From Chryseobacterium turcicum (GTDB taxonomy: Bacteria; Bacteroidota; Bacteroidia; Flavobacteriales; Weeksellaceae), in contig NZ_JAJNAY010000001.1 of the NCBI RefSeq assembly GCF_021010565.1, positions 2,956,001 to 3,020,000 of the forward strand: DNA of 64,000 nt. The letters are read 5' to 3'. Under the pieces are notes generated by a model. It made no database searches, was not told the DNA's origin, and saw only the letters and a list, made by a program, of their open reading frames with translations. This document shows, piece by piece, positions 2,445-24,950 of the stretch (position 1 is the first letter of the stretch; every line of letters starts with the position of its first letter). The translations under genes were made by a program, and so were the position numbers.

Positions 2445-3011
2445 TTAATTTTCTTTGAGATTTTGAAATGATTGATAAGCCTCAAAATCTAACCATTGAT
2501 ACTTTATCCTTCGCCATAGAATTTCAATTAGATTTAACTCTGGAGAATATGGTGGCAAAAAGTAAATAAAAACATCTTTTTCTTTCCATTGTTCTATTTT
2601 AGCCATAAATTTCTTTGATTTATGGATTGGTGAATTGTCAAGAATGACGATCGTTTTTTTAACGGTTTGTTCCACAAAACGATTCATAAAGCAGATAAGT
2701 CTATCTGAATTAAAGGTTGTTTCAAGTATTTCGAAATGAAGTTTATTTTTACGGTTCATCAACCCAACTACATTCTGATATTTGCCTTTAGCAGCAGGTA
2801 ATACTATTTGATTATCCTTTGTTTGCCAAGCATAAGGTACATTAGGATGGAGTCCAAAATGACTTTGGTCTCCAAAATATACATCAATATAACCGATATC
2901 TTCCAAACTCTTTAATGTTTCTATTTGCTTTTGTTTAAATCGAAATTGTTCTTCGTTTCGTTTCCCTTTTAAAGAGAGCCTAGCTCTTTTCCATTTATAA
3001 CCCAGTAACTT
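2445..3011 (-). CDS. IS630 family transposase, downstream frame (DDE catalytic part)
   Basis: This frame is open from 3011 to 2445. From the first methionine at 2906 it encodes 153 residues with the full D,D,E triad: the first Asp in YFGDQSHFG (residue 13), the second in VILDNSPIH (residue 90), and the Glu in LPPYSPELNLIEILWRRIK (residue 128). It completes the helix-turn-helix frame that ends at 2995. Joining the frames requires a +1 (or -2) shift within about 2998-3011. Either ribosomes shift there, or the element carries an inactivating indel. The catalytic residues themselves are intact. Confidence 0.8.
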   Translation of the reverse strand, partial: KLLGYKWKRARLSLKGKRNEEQFRFKQKQIETLKSLEDIGYIDVYFGDQSHFGLHPNVPYAWQTKDNQIVLPAAKGKYQNVVGLMNRKNKLHFEILETTFNSDRLICFMNRFVEQTVKKTIVILDNSPIHKSKKFMAKIEQWKEKDVFIYFLPPYSPELNLIEILWRRIKYQWLDFEAYQSFQNLKEN

Positions 3012-3387
3012 TTAAAAAATTCTGCAATGTTTTTTTGCAGATGATAATATTGTGTTGCTGTTCAAAGTAAATTAATACATTTTTTAAATTTCTATTGTGA
3101 AGTTCTAATTGCTCTGAAACCTCTTTGGAATAGTCTTTCAAAAGGGTTTTCGCACCTCTTCCCTCTGATATAGCAAGGGAATCAACCCCTATTTTATCCC
3201 AATTATCAAACCAACGTTCAATTGTTCTGCGACTTACTTTAAAAATAGAAGCTAGCTCTTTAATCTTGTGCCGTTGATCTGATAAAACAAGGCATTGACT
3301 GCGTTTTCTAACAGTATTATTAGGGCTATTTTGATGAAGGTGCTCTAATAACTCAATCTCTCCTTTTTTAAGTGTTACATATCTCAT
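2995..3387 (-). CDS. IS630 family transposase, upstream frame (DNA-binding helix-turn-helix part)
   Basis: A 130-residue N-terminal part with a helix-turn-helix at about residues 38-65 (IKELASIFKVSRRTIERWFDNW), which is typical of the DNA-binding half of IS630/Tc1 transposases. It ends with TAA just where the catalytic frame begins, and the two frames overlap by only about 14 bases. The 5' end lies 51 bases inside the right terminal repeat. The product alone lacks the DDE core and would need frameshifting to make an active transposase. Confidence 0.8.
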   Translation of the reverse strand: MRYVTLKKGEIELLEHLHQNSPNNTVRKRSQCLVLSDQRHKIKELASIFKVSRRTIERWFDNWDKIGVDSLAISEGRGAKTLLKDYSKEVSEQLELHNRNLKNVLIYFEQQHNIIICKKTLQNFLKVTGL

Positions 3388-3601
3388 AATGAGATAAATA
3401 TACCGAATTTACCCATTGCAAACAATTAAATACGACATTATTTTATTCTAATTACTTAACATTGAAAATTTAAGAAGCAAAGATTATAAAACAAGTCGAT
3501 TAAGCATGAACTATTCATGAGCTTTATCATTCATCTTTACTTTCTAAAATATTTGCGTGAAAAATATAATCTATATCGATTAAGATATAAACTGCTTTAA
3601 A

Positions 3602-4696
3602 TTATTCCCACCAATTCTGAAAATGATGATTGGTTTTATTTAAATCTAAAACTTCACCGATTTTTGGAGTAAGAATCTGTAGATTTTTTTCTTTTCCAAG
3701 CGATGTTACCTTTTGCAAAGGCTCATTCCAGGGATGTAAAGCCAAAGCAAATTTTGCGGAATGTACAGGAATAATATTTTTTGCCTGGATATCTAAACTT
3801 GCCTGAATAACATCTTCTGGCAAAGCGTGAATGTATTTCCAGGCAGGATTGTACTGTCCGTTTTCCATAATGGCAAAATCAAATGGTCCGTATTGTTCAC
3901 CAATTGTTTTAAAATGAGTATCATAACCGCTATCACCACCTAAAAATAGTTTTTTCGTAGGAGTTTCCAAAACATAAGAAGTCCACAACGTTGTATTTCT
4001 TTGGAATTTTCTTCCCGAAAAGTGTCTTGCCGGAGTAAAAGTTATTTTAAAATCATTTTTTAAAGCTACCGTTGCGCCCCAGTCTTCTTCAATCAACTGG
4101 TTTTCAGAATAACCCCATCTTTCAAAATGCGCTCCTACTCCCAAAGGCATAATTACTTTTCCTACTTTCTCACGAATGGCTTTTACCGTCGGAAAATCTA
4201 AATGGTCATAATGATCATGTGTAATTACCAGATAATCGATATTTGGAATATCTTGAGGTTTAAACAAATCTGAACCGTCAAAAGCTTTATTAAAAAACTT
4301 AAAAGGCGAACCAAAAGTGCTCAAAACAGGATCAATCAGAAAAGAAACTCCATTGATTTTTATGAAATAAGAAGAATGTCCCATCCAAATGAAAACATCT
4401 TCACTATCAGAAATTTTACTTAAATCGGTATGAATTGCAGGAATTGCTTGTAATGGCTTTAATAATGGGTCTTTTTTACCAAACAAAAAATTGACCATTA
4501 CTTTTGGCATCGAAAAACCTTCCGCAATCTGTGGAGTAAAACTCTGATTTTGGAATTGTTTATTCTTGTAATTTTTAGAATTAAGTATTTTTTCAAGACG
4601 TTTTCCTTTTGCTTCGGCACCAAAAACCTCCTGAGACATTACAAAATAAGTTGCTGCTACCAATACTGCAATCAATATAATTAAATAAACCATCAT
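3602..4696 (-). CDS. MBL-fold metal-dependent hydrolase (NAPE-PLD/UlaG-like), membrane-anchored
   Basis: A 364-residue protein with an N-terminal membrane segment (residues 3-20) followed by a metallo-beta-lactamase fold. The metal motif THDHYDHLD is at residues 159-167. MGHSSYFIKINGVSFLIDPV precedes it and GGDSGYD follows, a pattern typical of the beta-lactamase superfamily 2 branch that includes NAPE-hydrolysing phospholipase D and RomA-like proteins. It probably hydrolyses a phospho- or carboxylic ester at the membrane. The substrate cannot be read from sequence. Length fits the family. It stands alone, with a 600-base noncoding gap on its 5' side. Confidence 0.8.
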   Translation of the reverse strand: MMVYLIILIAVLVAATYFVMSQEVFGAEAKGKRLEKILNSKNYKNKQFQNQSFTPQIAEGFSMPKVMVNFLFGKKDPLLKPLQAIPAIHTDLSKISDSEDVFIWMGHSSYFIKINGVSFLIDPVLSTFGSPFKFFNKAFDGSDLFKPQDIPNIDYLVITHDHYDHLDFPTVKAIREKVGKVIMPLGVGAHFERWGYSENQLIEEDWGATVALKNDFKITFTPARHFSGRKFQRNTTLWTSYVLETPTKKLFLGGDSGYDTHFKTIGEQYGPFDFAIMENGQYNPAWKYIHALPEDVIQASLDIQAKNIIPVHSAKFALALHPWNEPLQKVTSLGKEKNLQILTPKIGEVLDLNKTNHHFQNWWE

Positions 4697-19907: not shown

Positions 19908-20572
19908 CACTTTGTCATCCCGTAGGGATCTCAACATAGCATTAGAGAACCACTTGGAAAGATTCGCATTTAGATCCTTTCAGGATGACAAACATGACGC
20001 TTATCTTTTTTTTGCAAAACCCAAAAACCTCTGCACAAATTTCTACACACACTTTGTCATCCCGCAGGGATCTCAATATAGTATTAGAGAATTTATATGG
20101 AAAGATTCGAGCTTAGATCCCTACGGGATGACAAACATGACGCTTATTTTATTTTTGCACCAAAAAAAACTTTGCATACACTTCTACCCACACTTTGTCA
20201 TCCCGCAGGGATCTCAACATAGCATTAGAAAATTGCTTGGAAAGATTCGCATTTAGATCCCTACGGGATGACAAACATGACGCTTATCTTTTTTTGCAAA
20301 ACCCAAAAACCTCTGCACAAATTTCTACACACACTTTGTCATCCCGTAGGGATCTCAATATAGCATTAGAGAACCGCTTGAAAAGATTCGCATTTAGATC
20401 CTTTCAGGATGACAAACATAACGCTTATTTTTTTTTGCAAAACCCAAAAACCTCTGCACAAATTTTCACACACACTTTGTCATCCCGCAGGGATCTCAAT
20501 ATAATATTAGAGAAATCTTTATGAAAAGATTCGGGCTTAGATCCTTTCAGGATGACAAACGTTGGGGTTAAG
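19908..20572. repeat. Array of five ~141-bp palindromic repeat units
   Basis: Units start at 19908, 20050, 20191, 20332 and 20473 (spacing 142, 141, 141, 141). Each opens with CACTTTGTCATCCCGYAGGG, has an interior of about 40 bases (TAGCATTAGAGAA...GATTCGCATTTAG), and closes with AGATCCYTWCRGGATGACAAAC, the near-complement of the opening. The linker GACGCTTATCTTTTTTTGCA is also conserved. Arms pair over about 20 bases, so each unit can form a hairpin. Short frames reading MSSRRDLNIALEN here are translations of the repeat, not genes. Confidence 0.9.
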
Positions 20573-20618
20573 TGTTTGTATAAAACAAAAAAACTCACCC
20601 ATTCGCTGAGTTCTTTAT

Positions 20619-21317
20619 TTATAGATTATTTTCTTCTTTCCGTTGTATATCCGAATTTTTCGCTGCCTTCACCAGCTCATTGGTATCGCTGTAGAGAAGC
20701 TCCCAACTGGGAACGTCTTTCATGGCGGTTAGTAGGTTGAGGTAAGATTTCAGGGTTTTCTCCAAATCTTTTCGGATTGCCGAAGCACTCGTCATCTGTC
20801 GGAGGTCAGCATTAGCTTCTGCCTGATCCGCAAACAGCAGTTCAAAAGCCTCATGCTTGGTTTTCATATCAGTAAAAGCAGGGTTGATAGAAAGCACGTT
20901 TATTTTCTGCATATTTTCAGGCGTTTCCAAAACTTCGATGAGCTTTTTCATTTGTGCCGTTTGCGAAGAATAGCTTAGGCGGTCGAGGTTTAAACCAAAA
21001 GTTTTAAACACCGTGTACAAATCCTCTGCGAACTGATAATTAGGTGCCGAAGCAAGCTTTCGGTAGCCATTGAGAAAGGCTTTCAAATTCTTGTACGCCA
21101 CATCTCTTTCCAGATCTGCGGTGGCAACATCTTTACCTTTTCCGCTGTAGATTTGTTTGGTGTAGACCAAATCGTATTCTGTGTAGAAAGTCTGCAAAGT
21201 CGCTGTAAGCGGATGGTTGGAAATTACAGGATATTTTCCTGATTGGATGTTGCTGATAATTCTTTGAGCCAAAGTCGCAAGGTCTTTAGTGCTCAGCTTA
21301 GTGAGTGTAATTTTCAT
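20619..21317 (-). CDS. DUF6261-like helical protein
   Basis: A 232-residue, almost wholly alpha-helical soluble protein (MKITLTKLSTKDLATLAQRI..., DVATADLERDVAYKNLKAFLNGYRKLA, LRQMTSASAIRKDLEKTLKSYLNLLTAMKDVPSW). It fits a Bacteroidota-only family annotated as DUF6261, as I recall it. No catalytic residues are evident. Its GC content is visibly higher than the surroundings. It sits between the palindromic array downstream and an 83-bp tandem repeat upstream, and a similar-sized helical protein at 59058-59750 also has tandem repeats upstream. Confidence 0.65.
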   Translation of the reverse strand: MKITLTKLSTKDLATLAQRIISNIQSGKYPVISNHPLTATLQTFYTEYDLVYTKQIYSGKGKDVATADLERDVAYKNLKAFLNGYRKLASAPNYQFAEDLYTVFKTFGLNLDRLSYSSQTAQMKKLIEVLETPENMQKINVLSINPAFTDMKTKHEAFELLFADQAEANADLRQMTSASAIRKDLEKTLKSYLNLLTAMKDVPSWELLYSDTNELVKAAKNSDIQRKEENNL

Positions 21318-21370
21318 CTTGTTGTGTTTTAATGAATTAATATTTTAAAGATATGAAAAATTTCTTTAGT

Positions 21371-21560
21371 TACAAACAATCTTGTTTTAAACCAAAGAAG
21401 TCCTCCGAAGCTTTCCCGCAAATTGCAGGAGACTTCCGCAGTCCTCCGGAACTTACAAACAACTCTGTTTTAAACCAAAGAAGTTCTCCGAAGGTTTCCC
21501 GCAACTTGCAGGAGACTTCCGGAGGACTACGGAATAGGCAAACAGGGTTGCTTTAAACAA
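21371..21560. repeat. 83-bp tandem repeat, two copies and a partial third
   Basis: Copies start at 21371 and 21454: TACAAACAAYYYTGTTTTAA, ACCAAAGAAGTYCTCCGAAG, then TTTCCCGCAA, TTGCAGGAGACTTCC and CCTCCGGA. A decayed third copy follows. The GC-rich internal words are self-complementary (CTCCGGA/TCCGGAG). It lies about 50 bases upstream of the DUF6261-like gene, where its promoter or 5' leader should be. Confidence 0.75.
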
Positions 21561-21710: not shown

Positions 21711-21805
21711 TCACTAAACACAGAAAAAAAGTGGCAATTAAGTCACACGCAAATTACTGGGTGTGATATTTGTCATGTTTAAGGCTAATATTAAATTTAA
21801 ATTGT

Positions 21806-22438
21806 ATGCGTAATTTTTTACCTCCTACAGAATTTTTCAGAGAAAAAAAAATTGAAATTTTCTTTCTTGAAAAACAAAAAAAAATTGTTGATGAAATTAA
21901 ATCTTATTCAGAGTCATCAATTAATAAAATTAATTTTGAAGAAGAAGCTGATAATATTATCAAGCGTTCCAACTTTAAAGTTCCGAAGCTGATAAAAGAA
22001 GGAACAACAACTGGAATATCTACATTAATACTTTCAGGAAGACAACTTCCACCTGGTAGATTTTATCAACAAGGTCGAAATTACGAAGTAGAGGTTGCTG
22101 ACTATGGAGTTCCCTTTGAAGGTAATAAAGACTTTTTTAAAATATATCCAAGTAAGTATCACAGTAAAAATGTAGAAGCTGTATTAAATACTAATGGTTT
22201 AGTTTTTAGACTTACTAACTATGGAAAAATAACTGGAAACGAGACCGAAATAGAAAACCTAAAAAGAGAATTTCTTGCAAATATTGATGCTACCGAAAAA
22301 ACACTTCTTCAAATTGAGAAGGAGTTAACGGATTACCTGCCTAAACTCAGGGCTCTAATTATTCAAAGTTTAGAAAACAGAAAACAGTTTTTAAATAGTA
22401 AAAAAGATAGTACTGATAAACTAAATCCATTTAATTAA
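21806..22438 (+). CDS. Operon gene 1: uncharacterised protein with a coiled-coil C-terminus
   Basis: The start at 21806 (MRNFLPPTEFFREKK) is preferred over an earlier in-frame codon because the upstream 12 residues are not protein-like. The product has 210 residues: a helical N-terminus (residues 1-50), a beta-rich middle (YEVEVADYGVPFEGNKDFFKIYPS, VLNTNGLVFRLTNYGKI) and a C-terminal coiled coil (IENLKREFLANIDATEKTLLQIEKELTDYLP, then LIIQSLENRKQFL). From memory this order resembles an uncharacterised bacterial family whose coiled coil ends in (R/Q)-R-K-x-x-L. I cannot name it. It is the first gene of a tightly packed operon, 20 bases before gene 2. Confidence 0.6.
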   Translation: MRNFLPPTEFFREKKIEIFFLEKQKKIVDEIKSYSESSINKINFEEEADNIIKRSNFKVPKLIKEGTTTGISTLILSGRQLPPGRFYQQGRNYEVEVADYGVPFEGNKDFFKIYPSKYHSKNVEAVLNTNGLVFRLTNYGKITGNETEIENLKREFLANIDATEKTLLQIEKELTDYLPKLRALIIQSLENRKQFLNSKKDSTDKLNPFN

Positions 22439-22458
22439 AAATTTACAAAACCTAAAAG

Positions 22459-23166
22459 ATGAAGAAAATTTCAGTAAACAACATCATTATATTTAGACAA
22501 AAACCTGAGAAAAGCCAACAGACATTTCTAAATTTTCTTAAAAGAAAAAGTTTAGTTCAGGAAGCTACAGAAAGTAGCGGAGGAAATTACTGGGTAAGAA
22601 GTTTAAGTGCGATGAGTAACGCCTTCAGAGAGATTAGCAATAAGCCGGTAAAGGATAAAATTTCCGAAGTTGTAGATCTTTTCACACCTAAATTAACTAA
22701 GCAAACAAAAGATATGTATCAAAGAAATCTCGATATTCTACATAATTATGAGGATTTTGATTTTTCGAAATGGTTACCTGATAAAATAAATATAGTTTCT
22801 AAAACAAGTAAAAAATCTATAATTTATCTAAATACTGTTCCTGTACAAATCAACCCAAGTCAAATTTATACATTTGATAAAGATGATAAAAAATGCGTAG
22901 GAGCTATTTGGTTTGTAGCAAGATTAGAAGGATATAAAGAAGAAGAACTTGGGATGTTTGCAGAAGCCCTTTACATTTATCTTTCAAATAATTTTGACGA
23001 AGAATATTTTGTAAGTCCTGAAAATTGTTTAGTTGTTCACGTACTTGACAAAAAAGAAGTTACCTATAAAATGATTGTTGATAAAGAAATTCCATCAGTT
23101 TTCGACGCAACGTTAAAACAGATAAAAAAATTATATGTATATCCGTTTTTCATCATACTGCCGTAA
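22459..23166 (+). CDS. Operon gene 2: uncharacterised protein, last residue replaced by an IS insertion
   Basis: A 235-residue protein without export signal or membrane helix. It has a basic N-terminus (FLNFLKRKSLVQEATESSGGNYWVRSL), then SEVVDLFTPKLTKQTKDMYQRNLDIL, and an alpha/beta C-terminal half (CVGAIWFVARLEGYKEEELGMFAEALYIYLSNNF, NCLVVHVLDKKEVTYKMIVD). An IS1595-type element entered at 23133. Removing the element and one 8-base duplication gives an ending ...KKLI-stop at 24130, so only the last residue has changed to the ten IS-encoded residues YVYPFFIILP. The protein is therefore probably functional. Family not recognised. Confidence 0.65.
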   Translation: MKKISVNNIIIFRQKPEKSQQTFLNFLKRKSLVQEATESSGGNYWVRSLSAMSNAFREISNKPVKDKISEVVDLFTPKLTKQTKDMYQRNLDILHNYEDFDFSKWLPDKINIVSKTSKKSIIYLNTVPVQINPSQIYTFDKDDKKCVGAIWFVARLEGYKEEELGMFAEALYIYLSNNFDEEYFVSPENCLVVHVLDKKEVTYKMIVDKEIPSVFDATLKQIKKLYVYPFFIILP

Positions 23167-24124
23167 TGTTAGCAATAATGAGCCTTTCGAAGAGTTGGTC
23201 TCCAAAATATCTTCGGTTTAGTTTGTAGATAAATTCATTTAAGTATAGTTGTAAGTACTTTCTTTTGATTTTATGATAATTTCCCAATAAATTTCGCTTC
23301 GCATTGCTGATGGTAATATGAACCCATTTTAAAATCTCTTCCGTAGTTTCTTTGTCCGATTTTTCTGTAATATGAAGCTCAACAAAATCAGAAATATCTA
23401 CGTAAGATGTGCTTTTATCAGTGAAAACAATACTTTCATTATCGATACATTCTTTAATGGTTTCATTAATTTCTAAGGAAAGATGCGTTTCTAAAACTTT
23501 AGCCTTAAAATACCTACAAGAACTAGATTTTTCTCCAGTTTCAAGATTCTCCAAAGGGGTAGATTCAGCCATCACAGCAACGTTTTGTTTGCCTGCTGCA
23601 CCTCTGCCTCGAACTCCTTTTTCTTGTTCAATCTCGCTGGATTCTACCGTGAAATATCCTTCATCAAACTCTATCATCCCTTCCAAAGTATATCTTTCAT
23701 CGCGGGTTCCCATGGCTTTTCTTAGTTTATGAACCATTGCCCAAACTGGCTCATAACGCTTTAATCCTAATTGTTTCTGGATTTCTTTAGACGAAAAACC
23801 TTTCTTGGTAACGCTCATCAGAAACATGGTTTTGTACCAAACTAAAAAAGAAAGATTTGAGTTCTGCATAATCGTACCGCTCTTCAAGGAAATCCTTTTA
23901 CGACACTTTTTGCATTCGTAGCTCCAGATACTTTTAATCCAGAAATGCTCATTGTGACCGCATTTACAAACAACCCCAATTTTATCTCTCTGCTCTTTAA
24001 AATGAATTTTGCAATCTTCCTCAGTACCAAAATGAGCTGTAAAACTAAATATATCCATCTAACTTATTAAACTATAGGTAAATATACGAAATTATGGACA
24101 ATTACGGATATACATAAAAAATTA
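23126..24124 (-). mobile_element. IS1595-family (ISXO2-like) insertion sequence with 8-bp target duplication
   Basis: The element spans 23134-24116 (983 bp). Its termini share TATGTATATCCGT as inverted repeats, with imperfect continuation for about 15 more bases. It is flanked by direct repeats AAAAATTA at 23126-23133 and 24117-24124, an 8-base target duplication as is usual for the IS1595 family. One full transposase gene is inside on the minus strand. It separates gene 2 from gene 3 of an operon and so can be polar on genes 3 and 4. Confidence 0.92.
23153..24058 (-). CDS. IS1595 family transposase (ISXO2-like)
   Basis: A 301-residue transposase with an N-terminal zinc ribbon (CKCGHNEHFWIKSIWSYECKKCRKRISL, four Cys at about residues 31-56). 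A helix-turn-helix segment follows (KGFSSKEIQKQLGLKRYEPVWAMVHKLRKAMG). The DDE domain begins IEFDEGYF. Further acidic residues lie in IVFTDKSTSYVDI and in the C-terminal NLLGNYHKIKRKYLQLYLNEFIYKLNRRY. It appears complete and the element's ends are intact, so it may be mobile. Confidence 0.9.
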   Translation of the reverse strand: MDIFSFTAHFGTEEDCKIHFKEQRDKIGVVCKCGHNEHFWIKSIWSYECKKCRKRISLKSGTIMQNSNLSFLVWYKTMFLMSVTKKGFSSKEIQKQLGLKRYEPVWAMVHKLRKAMGTRDERYTLEGMIEFDEGYFTVESSEIEQEKGVRGRGAAGKQNVAVMAESTPLENLETGEKSSSCRYFKAKVLETHLSLEINETIKECIDNESIVFTDKSTSYVDISDFVELHITEKSDKETTEEILKWVHITISNAKRNLLGNYHKIKRKYLQLYLNEFIYKLNRRYFGDQLFERLIIANITAV

Positions 24125-24155
24125 ATATAAATATCAAAAAAAATAAAAATATACT

Positions 24156-24686
24156 ATGAAATTTAACTTTGAAAATTTAGACCAAACTATTCGCCAGCTA
24201 ATGATTAACGAGATGGATTTTGACATACAAAATAACAAGTTATATCTAAGTAAAAGATTTAATGATAATGGTCAAGAAAAATATGAAGATTTATTAAAAC
24301 AATCTTTAGAAAGTGGAGATGAGCAAACTTTAGCGGTATCTCTTAAAAATAATAATTGCTTTAAATCACAAGAGGAAAGAAAAACAAAAACCGGAACATC
24401 ATTGGTAAAAGTGCCAGAGAATGCTAATATAACTTTTGCTGAAGGTGAGTTTAATAGATTTTATATTAGAGCACTTTGCTTAAAAGCAATAGATGAAAAT
24501 TTAGTGTTAGAGGTTTATAGAGCAAGACATTCAGACAAAACTAGATCAGAGTCTGAAAATTTAATAGGTGAAATTGTTGATCCTCAAAATCTATTAAATG
24601 ATCTAAGGGAAAATATCGGGATAGATACAGCATTAGGACTTCCTCCGGGTCCAAATAGTGGTCTATCAATAAAAGTTAAGTTATGA
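24156..24686 (+). CDS. Operon gene 3: conserved uncharacterised protein ending in a GPNSGLS motif
   Basis: A 176-residue soluble protein. The N-terminal half is helical (NLDQTIRQLMINEMDFDIQNNKLYLSKRFNDNGQEKYEDLLKQSLESGDE). A striking segment follows, TFAEGEFNRFYIRALCLKAIDENLVLEVYRARHS, and the C-terminus is LLNDLRENIGIDTALGLPPGPNSGLSIKVKL. I recall a scattered bacterial family with the same EGEFNRFY...LPPGPNSGLS signature, but no function for it. Before the IS insertion it lay 25 bases behind gene 2. Its stop overlaps the start of gene 4 by four bases. Confidence 0.65.
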   Translation: MKFNFENLDQTIRQLMINEMDFDIQNNKLYLSKRFNDNGQEKYEDLLKQSLESGDEQTLAVSLKNNNCFKSQEERKTKTGTSLVKVPENANITFAEGEFNRFYIRALCLKAIDENLVLEVYRARHSDKTRSESENLIGEIVDPQNLLNDLRENIGIDTALGLPPGPNSGLSIKVKL

Positions 24687-24913
24687 GAGTCAATCTTTGG
24701 TACGATGACGGAAGGCACATTTGGGGTTATTTCGAAGACAATAAGTTTAGATTATGGGATGAAAATTCAAAATATATTTGGGGAGAATGTATAAGTGATA
24801 GGATTCAACTTTGGACTGATGATAATCAATACATTTGGGGGAATTTGGAAAACAATGAAATTAAATTATGGGATGAAAAAGAAAATTTTATATTTGGAAA
24901 AATAGATAAATAA
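24683..24913 (+). CDS. Operon gene 4: small protein of four 19-residue LW..IWG repeats
   Basis: A 76-residue protein made entirely of a repeat: four units starting at residues 5, 24, 43 and 62 (19, 19, 19 and 15 residues). Each has the form LW-D-x-x-x-x-(I/Y)-(I/W)-(W/F)-G-x-x-E-x-(N/D)-x-(I/F)-x. Alternating aromatic and acidic residues suggest a small all-beta solenoid or blade. The ATG overlaps the stop of gene 3 (ATGA). A strong terminator follows 14 bases later, so this is the operon's last gene. Family not recognised; it is reminiscent of WG repeats but shorter. Confidence 0.65.
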   Translation: MRVNLWYDDGRHIWGYFEDNKFRLWDENSKYIWGECISDRIQLWTDDNQYIWGNLENNEIKLWDEKENFIFGKIDK

Positions 24914-24926
24914 TGAATTTAATAAA

Positions 24927-24950
24927 AAAACCTGCCTCACAGCAGGTTTT
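24927..24950 (+). terminator. Intrinsic terminator of the four-gene operon
   Basis: AAACCTGC and GCAGGTTT form an 8-bp stem around CTCACA, with flanking A and T tracts, 14 bases past the stop of gene 4. Confidence 0.85.

Follow-up and report, generated by a model that had tools for sequence, protein, structure and literature searches.

Cas4 has a four-cysteine cluster, and the nucleases of the Cas4/RecB type include Argonaute-associated Cas4 family protein 1 (ACE1; PDB 9iac). PDC-S54 is a single-gene defence candidate in PADLOC. Both resemble parts of a set of four genes, here named g1 to g4, that was found in Chryseobacterium turcicum (assembly GCF_021010565.1) in a 64,000 nucleotide stretch of contig NZ_JAJNAY010000001.1 (positions 2,956,001 to 3,020,000), referred to below as the window; the whole genome comprises 4.48 Mb. 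All four genes are on the + strand and a complete IS1595-family element interrupts the set between g2 and g3. A first-pass annotation of the window had read g1 to g4 as a single operon, possibly a defence system, in which no gene had a nameable function. That interpretation is partly supported as a whole. Together, the four genes probably make up two distinct items of interchangeable defence cargo, and the main interest of the locus, rather than a four-gene operon, is a hotspot that holds a gene pair with exchangeable partners alongside a separate cargo gene, with g2 the most unusual of the genes. Titles in the literature on PADLOC candidates, Cas4/Argonaute, defence reverse transcriptases (RTs), Chryseobacterium defence and MuF included none describing this locus.

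Exchangeable cargo beside hutU

The gene to the right of g4 encodes a protein of 661 amino acids (aa) that we take, by similarity, to be urocanate hydratase (HutU). HutU is present in all 78 genomes of the genus, that of the window included. The 3′ flank of hutU was taken from 40 of the 77 other genomes, with two flanks running to a contig end, and a border gene, which was either the 232 aa protein left of g1 or the next conserved gene (a 253 aa protein in the window), was recognised in 30 of the 40. At least one open reading frame (ORF) of 120 or more aa directed at hutU was found in 25 of these 30 bordered loci, while three had none and two had doubtful ones. The cargo ORFs, called by our own script rather than a gene finder, numbered 47 with the two doubtful loci counted, and only one pair was similar across loci (L173 and L187, 71%). 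Seventeen cargo proteins from 16 loci, picked by eye and mostly large, were scanned. In this survey, which covered the hutU site alone, seven of ten hand-picked proteins matched PADLOC families at E ≤ 1e-20, namely OLD, NsnB, PDC-S59, type IIG restriction–modification, HEC-06/Orf5, type II methyltransferase and HEC-01A/AbiLi. Two matches were weak (L172, 5.8e-6; L204, 1.5e-10) and the cargo protein of L179 had no PADLOC match. Pfam matches in the remaining cargo were to AIPR, Schlafen-AlbA (twice), RelA_SpoT, DUF4365, DUF3800, DUF4276 and a peptidase. As the defence cargo differs from strain to strain, the space beside the hutU-type gene is a defence hotspot, and it is a place to seek further systems in Chryseobacterium.

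One other occupant of this site includes a g2 relative. In genome G420, the same flanks (HutU 93% identical; for the 232 aa protein see Table 1) enclose a TIR gene, a g2 gene and a gene for a 376 aa protein. The TIR protein is PADLOC PDC-S66 (E 3.5e-101), the g2 product is 76% identical to that of the window, and the 376 aa protein has no Pfam or PADLOC family. Thus, g2 is common to both arrangements, while the gene before it is either TIR or g1 and what follows is either the 376 aa protein gene or g3–g4. The 3′ side of groEL, read by eye, is a second common insertion site in the genus, with g2 in G386 (L101) and g3 in G409 (L143).

Co-occurrence of g1 to g4 was compared in 235 loci, many of them short or overlapping. 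In these, g3 was found alone in 98 and g2 alone in 38; g3 was accompanied by g1, g2 or g4 only in copies of the window's own stretch, and apart from those copies no relative of g4 was present. Among 5.8 billion proteins, there were six matches to g1 (itself included), 133 to g2 and 2142 to g3 (E ≤ 1e-3, clustered at 90% identity). The longest contigs of three g1 matches (P0002, P0003 and P0005) are equal in size, at 2014, 104203 and 28321, to those of three g2 matches (P0132, P0129 and P0133), and the g2 matches paired in this way are 81–88% identical to g2 of the window. The fourth non-self g1 match is on a 730 bp contig, too short for g1 and g2, and the fifth is a 122 aa g1 for which no g2 match has a contig of equal size. 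Judged from these equal longest-contig sizes, g1–g2 looks like a conserved pair. When the best 120 of the 133 g2 matches were compared with the best 120 of the 2142 g3 matches (118 of the 120 g3 values by computation, two by eye), only one longest-contig size was shared, 915 bp, which is too short for both genes. In the family, g2 was found in 16 and g1 in two of 320 genomes (the second g1 a remote relative only) and g3 in four of 316, and only the window's own genome is on more than one of these lists. The genes therefore largely occur apart elsewhere and in no fixed order, with g1–g2 alone looking paired, and the conserved four-gene system proposed in the first-pass annotation is not borne out. 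Its placing of the genes in an accessory, defence-type locus did hold, as the site is variable and carries defence cargo, g1 matches a PADLOC candidate and g2 often adjoins defence genes. The positions and strand of the genes were also as it had described, as were the 20 base gap between g1 and g2, the 25 bases between the former g2 stop and g3 (counted across the target duplication) and the 4 base overlap of g3 and g4.

Table 1. Positions in the window of g1 to g4, the IS1595-family element and flanking features
Feature	Position	Strand	Remarks
Left-flank gene, 232 aa protein	20619..21317	-	hotspot border; 78% identical to left flank of G420
Tandem repeat, 83 bp	21370..21534	.	two copies, 89% matches, between left-flank gene and g1
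g1, 210 aa	21806..22438	+	matches N-terminal half of PADLOC PDC-S54 (4–199 of 410); proposed sensor/regulatory module
g2	22459..23166	+	predicted PD-(D/E)xK (Cas4/RecB-like) fold; own sequence to 23133, IS-derived tail to 23166
Target-site duplication, left copy	23126..23133	.	AAAAATTA
IS1595-family element, 983 bp	23134..24116	-	13 bp terminal match TATGTATATCCGT
IS1595 transposase, 301 aa	23153..24058	-	
Target-site duplication, right copy	24117..24124	.	AAAAATTA
g3, 176 aa	24156..24686	+	phrog_30545 (function unassigned); pan-prokaryotic family; weak MuF/minor-capsid resemblance
g4, 76 aa	24683..24913	+	four 19-residue repeats
Terminator-like hairpin past g4	24927..24950	+	count not above chance
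hutU-type gene, 661 aa	25070..27055	-	right border of hotspot; urocanate hydratase by similarity

The probable g1–g2 pair and its relatives

No named family was found for g2 in the four libraries searched, nor did any PADLOC model match. When its predicted model was compared using Foldseek, ranks 1 to 9 were occupied by entries that we take to be members of the Cas4/RecB PD-(D/E)xK superfamily (TM 0.41–0.47 for the top six), and the overall fold of g2 is predicted to be of this type. The canonical catalytic D...(D/E)xK was not found in the core hairpin, where no position from 128 to 155 is acidic in more than 80% of 125 aligned rows. The expected E and K sites, assigned by eye, are occupied by A149 (92%) and W151 (94%).

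The g2 survey returned 17 places in 16 genomes, and a known defence gene lies within 300 bp in 11 of the 17. These neighbours are TIR (L099), a type I restriction endonuclease (L102), McrBC (L104), McrBC with a type I restriction endonuclease (L106), GajA of Gabija (L111) and RTs of the UG5 (L103, L109 and L110), Drt2 (L108, where it is convergent, and L113) and UG19 (L112) types. The UG5 gene in L109 is broken and was identified by its twin and by RVT_1. In the window, the neighbour of g2 is g1, and no recognised defence gene was beside g2 in L100, L101 (contig end), L105, L107 (internal stop) or L114 (truncated). A plasmid copy of g2 is downstream of a DUF4041 gene. No Argonaute gene was among the neighbours scanned. 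As a control, RVT_1 was used to query the same 16 genomes, and six of the 17 RT matches adjoin g2, two of them within one duplicated stretch of G373; on the assumption of about 3,900 genes in each genome, approximately 0.01 would be expected beside g2 by chance. A broader sample of 296 genomes from the phylum yielded g2 in three, one of them doubtful, and no defence neighbour was recognised at two g2 loci of one genome in this sample. Phage records yielded no match to g2 and viral contigs yielded one. A small nuclease-fold protein that lacks the usual catalytic residues and has seven kinds of defence gene as neighbours (UG5, Drt2 and UG19 RTs, TIR, McrBC, type I restriction and Gabija) could serve bacterial immunity as a common adaptor or as a safety device.

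The duplicated stretch in G373 contains g2 and the UG5 RT gene in two copies approximately 160 kb apart (L109 and L110), with the RT frame whole in one and broken in the other.

The match of g1 to PDC-S54 in PADLOC had an E value of 1.3e-23, and plain BLASTP against one PDC-S54 protein gave 2e-4 with 21% identity. A comparison of profiles A3 and A6 was circular, as A6 holds g1 rows, and was not used. Relatives of the PDC-S54 type were present in seven of 197 genomes, five of them full-length (L127–L131; 410–417 aa). Past the g1-like region, the full-length proteins have a second domain with GKTDI...AECKFW...QL..YL, which, read by eye, is apparently an intact PD-(D/E)xK motif; Pfam gives no domain for this region. 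At 210 aa, against about 410 at full length, g1 does not include this C-terminal domain. The ATG start of g1 at 21806 agrees with three of five homologues, the other two being listed as starting 14 residues earlier, and an upstream TTG at 21770 is also open. A remote, short g1 relative is 43 bp from a PIN-domain gene in G314, another remote relative in G350 has a neighbour with no family, and no g1 relative was found in viral contigs. With a family assignment for g1 and a fold assignment for g2, the first-pass view that no function could be named is softened.

The downstream genes and the IS1595-family insertion

Homologues of g3 were found in 76 loci in genome contigs, which span a wide range of bacterial phyla together with several archaea and include many metagenome bins, as well as in four plasmid records, three phage records (two only partial) and 13 viral contigs. 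The archaeal examples are mostly from metagenome bins, and named matches were listed only as 'hypothetical' or 'uncharacterized'. Thousands of genes would gain an annotation if g3 could be assigned a function. Five IMG/VR contigs related to one another (L149–L153) carry g3 after a helix-turn-helix repressor-like ORF and a 71 aa ORF, as read by eye. The position behind a prophage repressor-like gene is usual for lysogeny-expressed genes. At four further loci, the neighbours of g3 are NADAR, SIR2_2, TIR and ThsB_TIR genes; the NADAR gene lies 1 bp beyond a g3 homologue at 2989–4018 in the 273 kb Erwinia phage pEa_SNUABM_54 (L145). Other neighbours are a GHKL ATPase (10 bp away) and DUF2235 (Hymenobacter plasmids, as annotated), and in other loci g3 is among housekeeping-looking genes. 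Clustering of the 711 ORFs within 4 kb revealed no recurring partner beyond common families. A 1048 aa ORF in L045 that combines a valyl-tRNA-synthetase-like part, recognised by eye, with g3 was taken as an insertion artefact and not as a fusion.

Of 97 loci examined, 12 have a convergent gene for a protein of approximately 70 aa (phrog_34881) at the g3 stop, either overlapping it, by 4 bp in nine of the 12, or lying directly against it (L015, L026, L050, L057, L078, L148–L153 and L156; five of these belong to contigs closely related to one another, and L148 is a repeat of L015). This gene is a possible regulatory or antitoxin-like partner of g3. In the window this place is occupied by g4. As the first-pass annotation had it, g4 is a pure repeat, of exactly 4 × 19 residues; self-comparison gave 16 identities at each of the offsets 19 and 38, and at most nine at any of the others tested from 8 to 44.

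The g3 model, which is confident (pLDDT 92), had no usable match in the PDB. A search of viral folds gave a best E of 1.3e-3 (probability 1.00; TM by query up to 0.57), with none at E ≤ 0.001. In the top 50 viral rows, 28 of the 32 with a functional name are minor capsid, minor head, MuF/GpF-like or head-morphogenesis proteins, a count that is not scaled to the frequency of such names in the library. When an alignment was forced, R122, R130, S133 and G138 of g3 fell on the R...R..H....G of MuF, a correspondence that is suggestive only. The fold matches could also reflect the PBECR domain, which phage Mu F carries (PMC5512222). A relationship to MuF is not confirmed by sequence. None of 124 g3 members had a Pfam match, and PF04233 was not among the 23 families matched at E ≤ 1. 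Comparison of full profiles using HHalign gave a probability of 0.3%. With trimmed profiles, the local score of 13.9 compares with a mean of 10.9 (sd 2.0, maximum 18.4) for 60 column shuffles and the global score of 0.8 is below the shuffle mean of 2.6; the MuF alignment used 28 of 30 rows, two incomplete ones having been dropped. MuF genes are reported to lie directly downstream of the portal gene, with some MuF proteins bearing toxin domains (PMC5576092), and g3 does not follow a portal gene in L149–L153, the only contigs read, by eye, for this feature.

The transposase of the element matches Pfam DDE_Tnp_IS1595 (5.1e-22) and NCBIfam transpos_IS1595 (5.5e-57). Both ends of the element start with TATGTATATCCGT, and a copy of the 8 bp target duplication AAAAATTA is at either side. 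Two more full-length copies in the genome, 99% and 98% identical, are of equal length and each has its own exact 8 bp duplication, and the boundaries of the element are therefore certain. Three partial matches were also found. The ISXO2/IS1595 transposase, terminal inverted repeats and 8 bp duplication are those of the IS1595 family, and the IS1595-type insertion noted in the first-pass annotation is thus a complete element, with its transposase gene oriented opposite to g1–g4. Homologues of g2 end in ...KKLM/I or similar, while the interrupted frame reads ...KKL followed by ten element-encoded residues up to a stop at 23166. The insertion swaps the last g2 residue and appends nine, which is more than the change of the C-terminal residue alone given in the first-pass annotation. 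With the element present, g3–g4 may be silenced or read from the element end.

The hairpin called an intrinsic terminator in the first-pass annotation exists, but a single such site is at chance level, with 1.2 terminator-like sites expected in shuffled sequence, and only its position right after g4 favours it as a terminator. Left of the hotspot, window positions 19910–20600 contain repeats that carry short ORFs resembling one another, along with sub-threshold hairpin-like matches to unrelated microRNA models. These stretches are probably a repeat family of the C. turcicum genome.

Explanations for the locus and comparison with known systems

The explanation we prefer, to which we give an even chance, is that the region between the 232 aa protein gene and the hutU-type gene holds exchangeable defence cargo that is composed of two or more independent modules and into which an IS1595 element has recently inserted; the biochemical steps set out here are proposals. 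One module would be g1–g2, a two-gene relative of PDC-S54 in which g1 may recognise an infection cue or phage product. The g2 product would be a pseudo-nuclease that binds nucleic acid or DNA ends and either couples the sensor to an effector or restrains the effector, its partner changing from locus to locus. The range of unrelated effectors that g2 adjoins (RTs, TIR, McrBC and Gabija) fits a role as a general adaptor better than one as a dedicated enzyme. The other module would be g3, with g4, as separate cargo with relatives that are also prophage-borne. From its weak MuF-like fold, g3 might interfere with or sense phage heads, and g4, with its repeats and its overlap with g3, could be a binding scaffold.

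Alternatively, g2 could be a working nuclease whose active site has moved, and g1–g2 a split restriction-type nuclease in which recognition of foreign DNA or of a phage signal falls to g1 and DNA cleavage to g2. In the 125 rows, position 163 is acidic in 98% and position 169 in 100%, both in the helix past the core hairpin, K67, K115 and a GG-YW stretch are also almost fully conserved, and the fused PDC-S54 relatives retain what by eye is an intact-looking motif. As the two strands expected to bear D and ExK lack any acidic position conserved above 80%, and D194 is H in g2 of the window (eight of the 125 rows have H there), we consider this unlikely. The integrated four-gene system of the first-pass annotation, if a rare one, would account for the single direction, the tight packing, the g3/g4 overlap and the hairpin past g4. 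It is hard to reconcile with the absence of g3 from the company of g1, g2 or g4 in the 235 loci beyond the window's own copies and with the single short contig size common to the best g2 and g3 matches, and appears improbable.

A decaying island, composed of mobile-cargo leftovers without present function, with the insertion a sign of relaxed selection, would fit the broken g2 copies elsewhere (internal stop in L107, split frame in L112, truncation in L114), the short g1 of one relative (P0006, 122 aa) and the three near-identical full IS copies, which indicate that the insertion is recent. As all four frames are open, the insertion spares every g2 residue except the last, and g2 and g3 are well conserved over wide distances, we regard decay as an improbable explanation too. 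A bolder extension of the cargo explanation, which we hold only as an unlikely conjecture, is that the g2 family is a catalytically dead Cas4/RecB-fold plug-in common to many defence systems (UG5, Drt2 and UG19 RTs, McrBC/type I restriction, Gabija, TIR, DUF4041 and the PDC-S54-like g1). It would bind viral or damaged DNA ends and license the adjoining effector, while g3 would be a MuF-like protein domesticated to sabotage or sense phage head assembly, and the hutU site of Chryseobacterium a place where such modules recombine.

Of the known proteins, the MuF/Phage_Mu_F minor capsid proteins dominate the named viral fold matches of g3. The UG5-nitrilase, Drt2 and UG19 defence RTs adjoin g2 relatives in six of the 17 places, whereas the genome of the window lacks any RVT_1 match. 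Cas4/RecB nucleases, of which ACE1 is the closest, resemble g2 in its predicted fold and in its defence-gene neighbourhood, but g2 is without the conserved D...ExK and has a single conserved cysteine, C190. PDC-S54 is one gene where here there are two, and g1 lacks its C-terminal domain, while g2 is predicted to represent a different, Cas4/RecB-like branch of the fold without the canonical catalytic residues. Nonetheless, g1 aligns with the N-terminal half of PDC-S54, and a PD-(D/E)xK-type fold that, by eye, appears to be fused to it there is predicted here for the product of a separate gene, g2.

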